This document shows positions 1 to 30,236 of a DNA stretch of 33,480 bases, one piece after another. Positions within the stretch are counted from its first letter, which is position 1. Each line of letters starts with the position of its first letter. A model generated the notes under the pieces. The model did no database searches. It was not told where the DNA came from and saw only the letters and a list, made by a program, of their open reading frames with translations. The translations under genes and the position numbers were made by a program. Origin of the DNA: Prochlorococcaceae cyanobacterium jk18x1bzbins.87 (GTDB lineage: Bacteria; Cyanobacteriota; Cyanobacteriia; PCC-6307; Cyanobiaceae). The stretch spans positions 1-33,480 of the forward strand of contig JAJDUS010000051.1 in assembly GCA_022826535.1 (NCBI GenBank), read 5' to 3'.

Positions 1-555
1 CCCAAGAGAGCACCAGGAGGAGATGGGTGATGGCCCAGTTGTTGGGGCTCAGCGCAGAGCAGGTTGATGGCATCCGCCCTTTGTTTCCCAAGGAACGGGG
101 TGGGAAGCGGGTGGAGGACAGGAAGGTGTTAAGCGGCATCATCCCTGTCATTCAGAAGGGGCTGCGCTGGGTGGATGCCCCCGGCCGCCTATGGCCCCCA
201 CAAAACCCTCTACAACCGTTTTCGCCGCTGGTCAGACAAGGGTATTTTTGATCTGATCTTTGACCTGCCGCCTGCGGCCACGGTGATCGGGGATCAAGGG
301 TATGACAGGGACAAAATCCGTCAGATGCTGTCCCAGCAGGGCATCACGCTTTGCATCCCGCCCCGTCGCTGCCGCAGGAAACCAGTGCATTACAGCAAGA
401 GATTGTATCGCAAGCGTCATAAAATTCGAGAATCTTTTTTCCCCACTGTAAAGACTGGCGGCCCATTGCAACCCGCTGCGACCGCTGCGCCCACGCCTTC
501 CATTCTGCCATCCTCCTGGCCGCCACTGTCCTCTTCTGGTGATGAGTCCTGGCCC
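1..555 (+). mobile_element. IS5/IS427-like element copy A, left end cut by window, internally deleted transposase
   Basis: Same nucleotide sequence as copies at 6381-7257 and 29089-29622; transposase C-terminus 'YDRDKIRQMLSQQGIT...KRHKI..'; right end ..GTCCTGGCCC followed by TA. Confidence 0.85.
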
Positions 556-2342: not shown

Positions 2343-2528
2343 GAGGGGGGCGGAGCCTTCCGAATCTGATCAAATTATTCCCTGGAAAGGAAAAGATTCT
2401 CCGTGAGTTCAGAATCATTTAAGATATGAACGGCATTGTACTAGTGTGCCCCCTGGCCGTGGTGGGTAGTGGGCAATACTGGTGTTCGGCAAGATAAGCA
2501 CTACTTTTGCTGGAGCGCCTCAGCGTTG

Positions 2529-3428
2529 ATGTCCCGTGATCTTGGCTTTGCACTGCTGAAACTCTTGCTGTCCATCGGTCTCACCATTGCTGCGGTGAGA
2601 CTGCTGGTCATCAACGGCCTGGAGAGGCTTGCCCAGACTCTGGGGTGGTCAGCCAAAACCAAGGGACAGATCCTGGGCTATGCCACCAGCCTGCCGGAGT
2701 TGGTGGCGGTGTTGGCCACAGCGGTCAATGGCAGGGAGAGCTTGGCGGGAGGCTTTTGGAATATCGCCTCCAGCAACGTGATCAATCTGGTGCTGTTTCT
2801 GACCGCCGTGGTATTTTACCTGCGCCACTGGGAGCTGTTTAACCCTCGCTTCATTGAGGAAATCAGCTTTTGTGCATTTTCTGTACTGTTGCCCCTGGTG
2901 CTGGCCGCCACCGGCGTCCCCCCTTCTCTGGTGCTAGGACTGGCTTTGCTGAGCTGCTTTCTGGGCTATCAGCTCCTGGACCATAATCTGGCGGAATTGC
3001 AGGGGAAGCGGGGCCAGGAGGCCAATGCCCAGGCCCCCGGTGGCGCCCAAGAGATGGCAATGGAGCAGACGCCACCCAACCAGGGGACAGCCCTTGTCCT
3101 GTTGCTGATGGGAATTGTGGCCCTCGCCGTCACTGGCCACAGCTTGGGGAACAGTGCCGAATTGCTCATTGAGGCCATCCAATTGCCTGCCTGGCTGGTG
3201 GGCTGTTGCCTGGGTCTGGTCACGTCACTTCCGGAACTCACATCCTTCTTTGATCTCTACGGCCGTAGTACAGGCCAGGCGGAGACCCGCAGGCTTGAGG
3301 CCACCCAGGCCAATCTGGACACCCTGGTGAGTTCCAACATGGCCAATATCGGTCTCATCTACCCCTTGGGGTTGGTGGCCTTTCAACTGAGTGAGTGGCT
3401 GGGGCTGGACGGGCTGATTGGGGCTTAG
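2529..3428 (+). CDS. sodium/calcium exchanger family membrane protein
   Basis: Two repeats with GYATSLPELVAVLATAVNG and GLVTSLPELTSFFDLYGRST alpha-repeat motifs; multiple TM segments; stop TAG overlaps IS copy B end. Confidence 0.85.
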   Translation: MSRDLGFALLKLLLSIGLTIAAVRLLVINGLERLAQTLGWSAKTKGQILGYATSLPELVAVLATAVNGRESLAGGFWNIASSNVINLVLFLTAVVFYLRHWELFNPRFIEEISFCAFSVLLPLVLAATGVPPSLVLGLALLSCFLGYQLLDHNLAELQGKRGQEANAQAPGGAQEMAMEQTPPNQGTALVLLLMGIVALAVTGHSLGNSAELLIEAIQLPAWLVGCCLGLVTSLPELTSFFDLYGRSTGQAETRRLEATQANLDTLVSSNMANIGLIYPLGLVAFQLSEWLGLDGLIGA

Positions 3429-4327
3429 GGTCAGGCCTCATCACCAGAAGAGGACGGTAGCGGCAGGAGGATGGCAGAATGGAAGATGTGGGCGCAGCCG
3501 CCGTAGCGGGTTGCAATGGGCCGCCAGTCCTTCTGTCGGGAAAAGAGATTCTCGATTTTGTGATCCTTGCGATCCAGCCTCTTGCTGTAATGCACTGGTT
3601 TCTTGCGGCAGCAACCGGGCGTGATGCAAGGCGTGATGCCCTGCTGGACCAGCATCTTACGGATTTTGTTCCTGTCATCCCCTTGATCGCCCATCACCGT
3701 GGCCGTAGGCGGCAGGTCCTCAGCACCAGTGAAGTCACTGCATTGCCCCTCACGCATTTGATCCGATCTTTTCTGAGTTGTCAGCATCCGACTCCGCAGA
3801 GCCGCCTGATGCCCCAGAGCCAGAGGTGCTGATGATTGACGCCACTGGTCTCAAAGCCCGTCCCACGGCGTCCAGCCTCAACAAACGGGGGGTGCCCCCC
3901 GCCTGATTGGTGGCACCAAGGGGGGCATGACCAGCAAGCTCCATGAGGTCTGTGACAGCAAAGGTGGTCCCCTGCGACTCCACCTGCGGAGGGGCAATGC
4001 AGTGGCTTCACCGGTGCCGATGTGGTGCTCAAAGACCTGCCGCCTGCGGCCACGGTGATGGGGGATCAAGGGGATGACAGGGACAAAATCCGTAAGATGC
4101 TGTCCCAGCAGGGCATCACGCCTTGCATTCTGCCCGGTCGCTGCCGCAAGAAATCCAGTATATTACAGCAAGAGATTATATCGTAAGCGTCATAAAATCG
4201 AGAATCTTTTTTCCCGACTGAAAGACTGGCGGCCCATTGCAACCCGCTACGACCGCTGCGCCAACGCCTTCCATTCTGCCATCCTCCTGGCGGCCACTGT
4301 CCTCTTCTGGTTGATGAGTCCTAACCC
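3428..4327. mobile_element. IS5/IS427-like element copy B, rearranged head-to-head (two right ends facing outward)
   Basis: 3428-3757 is the minus-strand 3' half of the transposase; 3758-4327 is a plus-strand portion; both outer edges carry the right terminus (GGGTCAGGCCTCATCACCAGAAGAGG and reverse complement of GGGTTAGGACTCATCAACCAGAAGAGG) flanked by TA. Confidence 0.8.
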
Positions 4328-4335
4328 TAGGACAC

Positions 4336-5589
4336 TTAGGGACGCAGAGGGATGCGGCGCCAGTAGGTGCCATCCTCCACGGCCCTGCTCCGTTGTTGCA
4401 GCGCGGCCATATCTGCTGGAATGACAGTGATCTGCTGCTCCCGTCCTTGCTGCCAGACGGTCAGCCTCAGCCGGCCCCCCACCCCCGCAGCCTCCACGGC
4501 CTTGAGCAACTCCTCCGACTGGGTCACACGGGTTCCCCCCACTGCAAGGATCACATCCCCGGCGCGAAGTCCCGCCTGCTCGGCAGGGCTCAAGGCTAGC
4601 ACATTGAGGACCAGCACCCCTTGACGTTCTGGCAGTTGGAAGCCCCTGTCACTGTTCCGATTGAATTCACGGGCCATCTCAGGCGTCAGGGGACGTAGGC
4701 CGATCCCCACCATGGCATGGCTCACCTTGCCCGTTTGGATCAACTCTTTGGCAATACTGCGGGCCCGATTGATGGGAATGGCGAAGCCCAGGCCAGCCCC
4801 CGGTCCACTGCGGACCAGGGTGTTGATGCCAACCACCTCGCCAGCCGCATTCAGAAGGGGACCACCGGAATTGCCAGGATTGATGGCCGCGTCGGTCTGG
4901 ATCAACTCCAGCCGCTTGTCGGTAATACCCAGCTTGCTGATATTGCGGTTGAGACTGCTGATAATGCCCATGGTGACGGTGTTATCCAGCCCAAAGGGAT
5001 TGCCCACCGCAATGGCCCAGTCCCCCACCTCCATGGCGTCGGAATCCCCCAAGGGGGCCACCGGCAAGGGGGTGGGGGACATCACCCTCACCACTGCCAG
5101 ATCGGTCACGGAGTCCAGGCCCACAACAGCGCCAGTCAAGGTGCGACCATCCGTCAGGCTCACCTCCACCTGATCGCTTCGTTCCACCACATGGGCATTG
5201 GTCAGGATCAAACCTTCCTCGGCAAAGATGACCCCTGTTCCCTGCTCCCGTTGGGTGCGTTGGGTGGGGGGCAGGCCATTCTCAAAGAACTGGTTAAAAA
5301 ACTGATCAAAGAATGGTCCCCCCATGCCCTGGGGGGGCAAGCGGCCAGTGGTCACAGTGCGCACGGTATCAATGCGGACCACAGCGGGACCAACACGGCG
5401 CGCAGCTTGTGTGACAAAAGACTCGGGTGTGATGGGTTCCCGCTGCGCAAACCCTGTGGGGACCACCACCAGCGAGCCAAGCGCCAGACCCAGGGCCAAA
5501 ACGCCAGCACGGCAGCCGAGGTGCGGGAAAGACCGACCCCATGCCGATGGTCGTGGTGCTGGCGTCAGTGGAGGAGATGGAAGTGCCAT
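4336..5589 (-). CDS. HtrA/Deg family trypsin-like serine protease with PDZ domain
   Basis: [32 protein letters not shown] catalytic triad motifs; C-terminal PDZ ([29 protein letters not shown]). Confidence 0.93.
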
Positions 5590-5937: not shown

Positions 5938-6381
5938 ATGCTGAATGAATGCCCCACAAAGGCCCCCTTGGGGTTTCTCACCAATGCACCAGACCCCGTG
6001 AACAAGAGAATGCGAACCGTTGCTGCGGTCTTGAAAGGCCTGAAGCTCCCCCCTCGCTTCCAGCTTCGGCAGGTGAAGGAAAATCCGATTCGCCTTGAGT
6101 TGACGCTGACCCCTGCCTATGGCAAGGCCCCCATCCTGGTGGGCCTGGTGGAGTCCCAGGATCTGGTCACATGGCGTGATCGGGACGGACGGGCCCCCCG
6201 TGACCTGCAAGGCACCTGGGACTGGACTGTTCGCCACGGCGCCGTGAGTACAGGGGGCTGGAATCCCTACTTGAAGGAAGCGCTCCAAACCATGTTTGAG
6301 ACAGGGCTCCCCGCCTATCTCTATGAGGAGGTCACAGGGGAGACCTATCACCCTGTGGATGGGGCCCGGCACGTGCGCTAG
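5938..6381 (+). CDS. conserved hypothetical cyanobacterial protein
   Basis: Uninterrupted ORF with protein-like composition; stop TAG completed by IS copy C. Confidence 0.6.
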   Translation: MLNECPTKAPLGFLTNAPDPVNKRMRTVAAVLKGLKLPPRFQLRQVKENPIRLELTLTPAYGKAPILVGLVESQDLVTWRDRDGRAPRDLQGTWDWTVRHGAVSTGGWNPYLKEALQTMFETGLPAYLYEEVTGETYHPVDGARHVR

Positions 6382-7257
6382 GGTCAGGACCCAGTAATGT
6401 GAGGAGTAGCCCCCTGAGGGTGCCCCAAGGGAGCACCAGGAGGATGGGTGATGGCCTGGTTGTTTGGGCTGAGCCAGGGGCAGGTTGCAGGTATCCGCCC
6501 CTTGTTGCCCAAGGAACGGGTTGTGAAGCGGGTCGATGACAGAAAGGTATTGAGCGGCATCTTCTACGTGACCCGGAGGGATCTGTGCGGGTGGATGCCC
6601 CGGCGGCCGATGGCCCCCACAATCCTCTACAACTGTTGCCGCCGCTCCTCAGACAAGGATATTTTTGATCTGACCTTTTCCGGGTTGCCACCATCCGATC
6701 CGTCAGAACCATCCGATGCCATAGGGCCACCCGATTCCGCAGAGCCGTGCGATGTACCGGAGCCAAAGGTGCTGATGATTGAGGCCACCAATCTCAAGGC
6801 CCATCCCACGGCATCCAGCCTCAGCAAGGGGGGCTGAATCCCGTCTGATGGACGCACCAAGGGGTGCATGACCAGCAAGCTCATGGGGTCTGCGACAGCA
6901 AAGGTCCTCCTCTGCGGCTGGACCTGAGGGAAGGGCAATGGAGTGACTTCACTGGTGCTGATGGCTGCCGCCTGCTGCCGCGGTGATGGGGGATCAAGGG
7001 GATGACAGGGACAAAATCCGCAAGATGCTGGCCCAGCAGGGCACCACGTCTTGCATCCCGTCCCGTCGCTGCCGCAAGCAGCCAGTCCATGACCACAAGA
7101 AAGTCTACCGCAGGTGTCACAAAATCGAGACGCTCTTTTCCCGGCAGAAGGACTGGCGGGCGGCCCATTGCAACCCGCTACCACCGTTGCGTCCACGTCT
7201 TCCCCTCTGCCATCCTCCTGGTCGCCATTGGCCTCTTCTGGTGATGAGGCCTGACCC
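6381..7257 (+). mobile_element. IS5/IS427-like element copy C, degenerate transposase
   Basis: Terminal inverted repeats GGGTCAGGACCCA / GGGTCAGGCCTCAT, TA on both flanks (6379-6380, 7258-7259); DDE-like MIEATNLKAHPTASS and KIETLFSR.KDWR segments in different frames. Confidence 0.85.
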
Positions 7258-7274
7258 TAGGCCGTCCGATCCTG

Positions 7275-17077: not shown

Positions 17078-18640
17078 ATGATGGATCCTGGGCATCCTGA
17101 ATATGGCCTTCTGGGGATTGTCTCCCTTGTCATCCTGGAAGGATGGCAACATACGGTGAATCCTGTGCTGAATACGCTCTTGGCCTTCTCCGGGCTGTCC
17201 CTTGTCCTGGGGTATGGAGTTCTGGCTCTGTCCCTGCCCTTGTTGCTGCTGCCCATTGCCTTCCCGGAACTCTCCCGTCCTCGCGATGCGGTCTGGTCCC
17301 TGGTGCTGGCGATCCTGGCGCCTTTGCTGCTGCTGAACCCCTTACCTGTCTTCAGCAGCGCTGGCTTCGGCGAGTTGATTGCCACGGTGCTGATAGGGCG
17401 TCTTGCTGCCGAGGTGGGACAAGGACGCTGGGAGTCTCTCACCCCGGACCAGAGAACCGCCCTGGGCCACCTGCCCCGGTGGCGTCGCGCTGGCGCTGAT
17501 TTGGTCACTGCTGTTGTGCAGGCAGCGAAGGCCGCCTGGAATGCCACTGCCCAGGCGACAAAGGCCACCTGGGCTGCAGTGTTGGACATCAAAAGCCCTG
17601 TTGAGCAACCCCAGGCTGAAAAATCTGCCCAAGAATCTCGCCAGAAGCCTGCCCGCAAACAGTGGATCCGTCCTGAATCGTCGGATGGGGGCCAGGTTGA
17701 CCAGGATGGTGGAACCAGTTCCGAAGTCCCGGACGTGGCTCCTGAAGTGGTGACCAGCGTGGTTGCAGCTAACACTGCCCTCGATGCTGAATCCGCTCAA
17801 CCGGTTGATGGTGAGGACGGTGATCCCGATGGAGCGCCAGCAGATGGGGCAGCAGCAGTTGTTGAGGGCCATGCCCAGACCCCAGAGCCCGCAGCGCAAC
17901 CATCTGAAGGGATTATAGCCGCTGCTGTTGGCCATGGGCCAGAGGCTGGGGAGGGTGGACCTGAAGAGCCAAGCTCTCCTGAGCCTGTTGTGCTTACCGA
18001 AGGCGCCCAACCCGCTCAATCGGTTGATGGTGGAGATGGTGATGCCATAGGCGCCCATGGCGGGTCAGGAGATGGAGCGCCAGCAGTTGTTGATCCCCCG
18101 GAGCCAGCAGCCCAATCTTCTGAAGGGAGTGTAACCGCTGCTGCTGGCCGTGGGCCAGAGCCTGGGGAGGGTGGACCTGAAGAGCCCAGCCCCCCTGAGC
18201 CTGTTGTGCTTGCCGAAGGCACCCAGCCCCCCCAGTCGGTTGGTGGTGGTGGAGATGGTGATGCCATAGGCGCCCATGGCGGGTCAGGAGATGGAGCGCC
18301 AGCAGTTGTTGAGGGCCATGCCCAGACCCCGGAGCAGCCCGCGACGCAACCATCTGAGGGGGGGGGTGTAACCACTGCTGCTGGCCGTGGGCCAGAGCCT
18401 GGGGAGAGTGGGCCTGAAGCGCCACCCCCCCCCGAGCCTATTCAGCTTGCGGAAGATGCCCAGCCCCCTGAACCCCTTGATGATGGTGGGGATAACCCTG
18501 GGGCCAGAGAAGCCCATGGGTCACTCCAGGATGCGGTCAACAGTCCATCCGTGGGCGTGGTGGCGCTGGAAAGCAGTCCGGGGGATAAGGGATGGTGGGG
18601 GGTGGTCGACAGTCTTGATGGAGTGGATCGGCAACTGTGA
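17078..18640 (+). CDS. hypothetical membrane protein with long Pro/Glu/Gly/Ala-rich tandem-repeat C-terminal region
   Basis: N-terminal hydrophobic segments followed by three degenerate repeats of about 73-76 aa (SEG..TAAAGRGPEPGEGGPEEPSPPEPVVLAEG..QSV.GGDGDAIGAHGGSGDGAPAVV). Confidence 0.75.
   Translation: MMDPGHPEYGLLGIVSLVILEGWQHTVNPVLNTLLAFSGLSLVLGYGVLALSLPLLLLPIAFPELSRPRDAVWSLVLAILAPLLLLNPLPVFSSAGFGELIATVLIGRLAAEVGQGRWESLTPDQRTALGHLPRWRRAGADLVTAVVQAAKAAWNATAQATKATWAAVLDIKSPVEQPQAEKSAQESRQKPARKQWIRPESSDGGQVDQDGGTSSEVPDVAPEVVTSVVAANTALDAESAQPVDGEDGDPDGAPADGAAAVVEGHAQTPEPAAQPSEGIIAAAVGHGPEAGEGGPEEPSSPEPVVLTEGAQPAQSVDGGDGDAIGAHGGSGDGAPAVVDPPEPAAQSSEGSVTAAAGRGPEPGEGGPEEPSPPEPVVLAEGTQPPQSVGGGGDGDAIGAHGGSGDGAPAVVEGHAQTPEQPATQPSEGGGVTTAAGRGPEPGESGPEAPPPPEPIQLAEDAQPPEPLDDGGDNPGAREAHGSLQDAVNSPSVGVVALESSPGDKGWWGVVDSLDGVDRQL
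17864..18510 (+). repeat. in-frame tandem repeat, units about 228, 219 and ~210 bp
   Basis: gcgcccatggcgggtcaggagatggagcgccagcagttgttg occurs at 18051 and 18270 (219 bp apart); gagggccatgcccagacccc occurs at 17864 and 18311. Confidence 0.85.
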
Positions 18641-29088: not shown

Positions 29089-29622
29089 GGGTCAGGACTC
29101 ATAACATGAGGAATGATCCTCTCACCAGAGAGGGAGACCCAAGAGAGCACCAGGAGGAGATGGGTGATGGCCCAGTTGTTGGGGCTCAGCGCGGAGCAGG
29201 TTGCCCGTATCGGCCCCTTGTTTCCCAAGGAACGTAGGTGGGAAGCGGGTGGATGTCCCTGCTGCCTATAAGCCCCCATAAAACCCTCTACAACCGTTTT
29301 CGCCGCTGGTCAGACAAGGGTATTTTTGATCTGATCTTTGACCTGCCGCCTGCGGCCACGGTGATCGGTGATCAAGGGTATGACAGGGACAAAATCCGTA
29401 AGATGCTGTCCCGGCAGGGCATCACGTCTTGCATTCCGCCCCGTCGCTGCCGCAGGAAACCAGTCCATTAAGAGCAAGAGGCTGGATCGCGAGGGTCACA
29501 AAATCGAGAATCTTTTTCCCGACTGAAGGACTGGCGGCCCATTGCAACCTGCTACGGCCGCTGCGCCCATGTCTTCCGTTCTGCCATCCTCCTGGCTGCC
29601 ACTGTCTATGGGTCCCTGACCC
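29089..29622 (+). mobile_element. IS5/IS427-like element copy D, internally deleted non-autonomous derivative
   Basis: TIR GGGTCAGGACTCAT / GGGTCAGGGACCCAT, TA flanks at 29087-29088 and 29623-29624; same internal deletion junction as copy A. Confidence 0.85.
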
Positions 29623-30137
29623 TAGGGTTTGCTCCAGGTGCAGTCCCACGTGATAATGCCGGTGCTGGCGCTGAGATACCGGGTCTCATAGGAACATCGA
29701 CCAGCAATGTTGGCATATTTGCCTGTGCCGCCCACCAGGTTCACATGACCCATGCCCCCCCGGTTGGCGGCGCCTAGGTCTCCCTGCTCCCTGGTCAGAA
29801 GGGCAAACAGCTCATCCCCGCCATCCTCGTTTGATTCCATGAGTGTGCAAGGGGCCTTTACACTGAGATTACCGGCGGATTCTTCCGAGAACACCACGCA
29901 GGACCGGAGAAAACTTTGGCCTTCCGGGAAGAGGGGACCCTGGCCGCTGGAAACGATGACGCCACCCTCCAGACTGCCTGCTGTAAATGTTGTCCTGCCT
30001 TGTTGAATCTGATCGTAGGAGTAGGCGTAACTCCCTGTCAAGGCAAACTGACCACTGGTTTGGGCGAGAACAGGAGAGAGGGGGGCAGCCAGGCCAGCCA
30101 GGATCAGCCAGAGACTGGACCTGTGGAAGAAACGCAT
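29622..30137 (-). CDS. secreted hypothetical protein
   Basis: MRFFHRSSLWLILAGLAAPLSPVLAQTSGQFALTGSYAYSYDQ..., clear Sec signal peptide; stop TAG formed at IS copy D boundary. Confidence 0.65.
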   Translation of the reverse strand: MRFFHRSSLWLILAGLAAPLSPVLAQTSGQFALTGSYAYSYDQIQQGRTTFTAGSLEGGVIVSSGQGPLFPEGQSFLRSCVVFSEESAGNLSVKAPCTLMESNEDGGDELFALLTREQGDLGAANRGGMGHVNLVGGTGKYANIAGRCSYETRYLSASTGIITWDCTWSKP

Positions 30138-30236
30138 GAACACCGGATCGCAAGACTCTTCCAAAGTATACTTTGAAGCGCCCCTTCAGCGTGCAATATG
30201 CAATTTGATGCCAGCAACACACCATTTTAAGCCAAG

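Follow-up and report, generated by a model that had tools for sequence, protein, structure and literature searches.

Does a mobile element that sits exactly on the stop codons of its neighbours seek out stops, or do its copies simply survive there? The question is raised by the stretch of DNA analysed here (the window), 33,480 nucleotides that make up contig C128 of genome G000 (2.49 Mb, 145 contigs) and in which four copies (A–D) of one repeat are present. An earlier note on this DNA proposed that at three genes the stop codon consists of a host TA and the first G of the element, that UAG is thereby rebuilt and the host protein stays full length, and that either survivorship or a genuine target preference could be responsible. 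We favour, at a probability of about 0.8, a coincidence of the element's target motif with stop codons combined with the survival of harmless insertions, not stop-codon targeting.

Copies in the window and the genes beside them

Copy C (positions 6381–7257, plus strand) is an IS5-family element with degenerate transposase genes and the ends GGGTCAGG and CCTGACCC, its right-end terminus being confirmed. The left TA duplicate (6379–6380) forms, together with G6381, the TAG stop of the upstream coding sequence; the junction at 6379–6381 reads TA plus G and continues GGTCAGG, and the right TA duplicate (7258–7259) is also followed by G, which gives C-TA-G as the pre-insertion target. The span of 6379–7259 originally assigned to this copy had the site right but takes in both TA duplicates. 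The coding sequence whose stop copy C rebuilds (5938–6381, plus strand, 147 aa) has no match in Pfam, and its end codon is the same in orthologues from genomes G001–G012.

Copy B (3428–4327) rebuilds the stop of a Na+/Ca2+ exchanger gene (2469–3428, plus strand; PF01699) from TA (3426–3427) and G3428. It had been taken for one copy of the element, and its stop junction was correctly read, but the copy is not a simple one: it is made up of two right-end halves inverted relative to each other, with right ends on both sides. TA still flanks this rearranged element on both sides. Copy D (29089–29622, plus strand) carries internal and right-end deletions and rebuilds the stop (29624–29622) of a 180-aa coding sequence on the minus strand (29622–30164). 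All three junctions of host TA and element G are confirmed in the sequence, as is the reported nearness of two further ends to stops: the right end (555) of copy A (1–555, plus strand, 5' end lost at the contig edge) lies 12–13 bp from a minus-strand stop at 571–569, and the right end of copy B (4327) lies 7–10 bp from the stop (4338–4336) of an htrA-like protease gene (4336–5589, minus strand; Pfam Trypsin_2 and PDZ). Elsewhere in the window, at 17797–18497, tandem direct repeats of ~216–237 bp (families D2 and D7) lie inside or adjoin a long frame.

The element and its target

Across the genome, patterns anchored within the element located 98 left and 108 right ends, with no matches from reversed-pattern controls; 184 ends were left after filtering, 182 of them not nested in another copy. 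The stretches read around the copies, window included, come to ~740 kb of the 2.49 Mb genome, which holds ~100 copies of the element. Right ends number 101 in G000 versus 0–11 in each of nine congeners, and with the proviso that a search pattern built from G000 copies will miss diverged congener copies in this count, the element underwent a lineage-specific burst.

What kind of element is it? The consensus is 863 bp long, both of its ends begin with GGG, and the short terminal inverted repeats start with G (GGGTCAGGACTCAT... at either end), as in the IS5 family. A hand-joined consensus transposase matches NCBIfam NF033580 (IS5 family) at 224 bits, the cut-off being 110, and Pfam DDE_Tnp_1 and DUF4096 are also above cut-off; the domain halves lie in two overlapping frames, 0 and +1, around a G run. 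Membership of IS630/Tc1-mariner was rejected, as no IS630 model was among the HMM matches and the best of them was IS5. Full-length copies are mostly 85–94% identical to the consensus, and very few have long open frames. The element is, in other words, a degenerate IS5-family insertion sequence, which we take to belong probably to the IS427 group (orfA/orfB type). Elements of that group are 800–1000 bp long, and their orfA and orfB are joined through a programmed frameshift.

The outer flanks read YTA at 131 of the 184 ends, and at the 182 non-nested ends position −3 is C in 71% and T in 23%, position −4 is C in 60% and position −5 is C in 54%. Among clean paired flanks (n = 29), the target is CTAG in 16 cases, CTAA/TTAG in nine, TTAA in two and another sequence in two, against a background of 4947 non-coding TA sites that include 274 CTAG, 547 CTAA/TTAG and 333 TTAA; CTAG thus makes up 16/29 of clean targets versus 5.5% of non-coding TA sites, a roughly tenfold enrichment. 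The element prefers YTAR, and CTAG above all. The preference extends more widely, to a preceding CC and, by symmetry, a following GG (consensus near CCYTARGG), and the best target (CCCTAGGG) looks like two element ends joined via TA. The duplication comprises TA rather than the whole of YTAR, since at asymmetric targets (CTA..TAA, TTA..TAG) the element still begins with G at either end. On this ground a 4-bp CTAG duplication as in IS5 was rejected, and so was membership of IS5 sensu stricto (E. coli), the asymmetric flanks showing duplication of TA only.

Host stops before and after insertion

Insertion at YTAR would have a particular consequence at the end of a gene. Wherever a pyrimidine precedes a TAA or TAG stop, the two together make a YTAR site; an element inserted at such a site always gives TA plus G, i.e. 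TAG, and leaves the protein unchanged; since both element ends start with G, either orientation restores TAG. An in-frame TAR is always a stop, and YTAR stops are therefore the sole in-gene targets that spare the protein.

Genome-wide, 25 of ~186 readable ends fall exactly on a predicted gene stop, with genes called not from curated annotation but by a home-made three-periodic Markov finder trained on the fetched stretches. By this finder, coding density appears low, at 69% of unmasked stretches. Could the insertions have truncated these genes, TA plus G being merely the first stop met? The 25 at-stop ends provide 19 genes with congener homologues, and three of these (L129, L077 and L081) have no stop at the same codon in any congener: the first two end 1–13 codons earlier than their congeners do, and the gene end of L081 could not be aligned. 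The remaining 16, however, share their end codon with at least one empty congener, and ten of the 19 do so with all congeners read; the stop at the shared codon in empty relatives is usually TAG or TAA. These empty sites refute truncation for most cases, and as a general account of the at-stop copies it is exceedingly improbable.

In the window, the end codons at copies B and C are shared by all congeners read: the exchanger stops there with TAG or TAA in 7/7 congeners, and the gene at copy C does so in nine congeners that lack the element, where the codon is TAG in eight and TAA in the ninth, more distant genomes having TGA, TAA and TAG at that stop. For the gene at copy D, three congeners share the end codon. 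The ancestral stops did not lie elsewhere, and paired flanks give the stop before insertion as TAG for copy C and TAA for copy D. One of the three congeners that share the end codon at copy D, G005, carries at that stop a diverged element of its own with an internal deletion (contig C99, L249:1906–2356) and with an unrelated far flank; this remnant stems either from an independent insertion or from an ancient one, common to both genomes, that was later rearranged. Because 16/19 checkable genes share their end codon with empty relatives, host proteins at at-stop copies are kept, or nearly kept, full length. The pattern is repeated in congener genomes, where seven right ends close coding-like frames with TAG.

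The rebuilt stop does not always last. The junction TA is changed to CA or TG at 37/182 ends (L031–L130 and the window), usually on one side, and T to C at the junction TA (16%) is about four times as frequent as inside the element (4.4%); CA as an alternative target, suggested by the CA/TG ends, was rejected because paired flanks usually show TA at the partner. The proposal that UAG is rebuilt and the protein stays full length accordingly stands for copies B, C and D, whose empty orthologues end at the same codon, but has exceptions: in four other genes, decay of the junction TA has abolished the rebuilt stop (L107:4354, L033:1146, L092:7651 and L059:3482). In these, a strong gene frame enters CAG or TGG and then the left end, reaching a stop after 6–9 element codons, and read-through is predicted to add C-terminal tails such as QGQDSSYEE; the congener genes end either right at the junction or a few codons from it, the last stretch being poorly aligned in three of the four. 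Decayed ends make up 4/20 of those at gene ends (frame score >15), a fraction similar to that elsewhere, and no strong selection for keeping the rebuilt TAG is therefore visible. In G000, 4/15 left and 0/11 right at-stop ends have decayed (p = 0.11, on small numbers), and one congener right end (L230) has lost its stop.

Might the GGG terminus and the YTAR target have evolved specifically to spare host proteins? The G at the start of both ends, by which TAG is rebuilt in either orientation, and a second in-frame stop nine codons into the left end of the consensus are both consistent with such an adaptation, but the right end has no back-up stop: read inwards in the same frame as the rebuilt stop, on the strand opposite the transposase, the consensus is open for ~149 codons. 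Moreover, neighbouring sites are used as much as stops, and YTAR/CTAG targets are known in other elements (IS5 of E. coli, PMC11894529; IS630, Tenzen and Ohtsubo 1991, cited in PMC2170065) without being read in this way. An adaptation of this kind is very unlikely.

Are stops hit more often than expected?

When at-stop ends are set against motif-weighted random non-coding YTAR sites, a control that includes promoters and missed genes, 24 are found versus 11.1 expected with weighting by tetramer, an excess of about twofold (p = 0.0005); three gene-score cut-offs were used, and the stricter two give 17 versus 9.5 (p = 0.018) and 12 versus 7.0 (p = 0.08). The comparison with random intergenic TA sites that the earlier note had called for thus yields an enrichment of stops genome-wide, but none appears against local 3' sites. 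Occupancy is 17/127 at YTAR stops versus 8/87 at YTAR sites 1–60 bp downstream (OR 1.5, 95% CI 0.6–4.3, p = 0.39). In other words, stops and sites just downstream are indistinguishable within these wide limits, whereas a stop-codon-targeting element should occupy stops more than equivalent nearby sites. With congeners pooled in, the comparison is 23/140 stops versus 12/102 downstream sites (p = 0.36), and the pooled p becomes 0.09 and 0.006 when the downstream control is widened to 150 bp and 300 bp, respectively; in G000 alone, occupied versus empty downstream YTAR sites number 8 versus 79 at 60 bp, 13 versus 139 at 150 bp and 14 versus 203 at 300 bp.

How should this distance effect be read? 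The transposase, or a DNA state such as a terminator, supercoiling or replication fork collisions, could genuinely favour gene 3' ends, i.e. stops and the sequence just after them, which would agree with the twofold excess of stops over random non-coding YTAR sites and with an occupancy that drops off at distances above 150 bp. The same drop is predicted, however, if insertions into promoters and unannotated genes are selected against, and between stops and the first 1–60 bp there is no detectable difference; we hold such a preference to be decidedly unlikely. The effect that rises with distance is as expected for insertions reaching needed sequence, and equally for a true 3'-end preference, and we tentatively put the excess over all non-coding YTAR sites down to the promoters and overlooked genes that this control contains. 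A combined account, in which a modest real 3'-end preference (up to ~fourfold) acts on top of YTAR and stops are a safe haven, the left end having a back-up stop nine codons in and the right end depending on the rebuilt TAG alone, is conceivable but unlikely.

Motif coincidence and survival remain our preferred explanation. The IS5-family element would have expanded in this lineage by inserting at TA in YTAR and duplicating TA; insertions at any other in-gene YTAR would break the frame, and copies of that kind would mostly be lost; at-stop copies would build up as fast as those at other harmless 3' sites, without any special recognition of the stop. We infer that in-gene copies are missing because disruptive insertions are lost and not because the element chooses other targets. 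As to the original choice between survivorship and target preference, a preference does exist, for YTAR and CTAG, but it is not for the stop codon as such, local sites being equally occupied.

Significance and comparison with known systems

With a simple target motif that coincides in part with stop codons, an insertion sequence can reach ~100 copies in a small genome and still leave many host proteins intact. There is also a caution here; before targeting is invoked as a mechanism, adjacency to stop codons should be compared with the occupancy of equivalent sites close by. The 25 sites, together with the empty congeners, constitute a data set for the study of stop-codon replacement (TAA to TAG) and of C-terminal extension by mobile elements. 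On elements that rebuild stop codons, we found nothing on point in the literature searched, the coverage of which leaves out most subscription journals.

Similar targets are known from several systems. MITEPsy1 of Pseudomonas syringae inserts at CTAG or YTAA (PMC3189936), a comparable target, but is a 100-bp non-coding element with a 4-bp duplication. For IS630, TA within 5'-CTAG-3' is the reported target of choice (Tenzen and Ohtsubo 1991, cited in PMC2170065); IS630 and ISY100 (Tc1/mariner) share both the TA duplication and the target choice with the present element, whose transposase is instead of the IS5 family. IS5 of E. coli has the target consensus C(A/T)A(G/A), with CTAG at fucAO (PMC11894529), and is similar in target and related at the family level only. 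It is the IS5 family of insertion sequences as a whole that the element most broadly resembles, in its HMM-assigned transposase family, its length of ~860 bp, its two overlapping frames, its G-starting ends and its YTAR/CTAG-like target, whereas it differs from IS5 itself in duplicating 2 bp (TA) rather than the reported 4 bp (CTAG) and in that nearly all of its copies here are degenerate.
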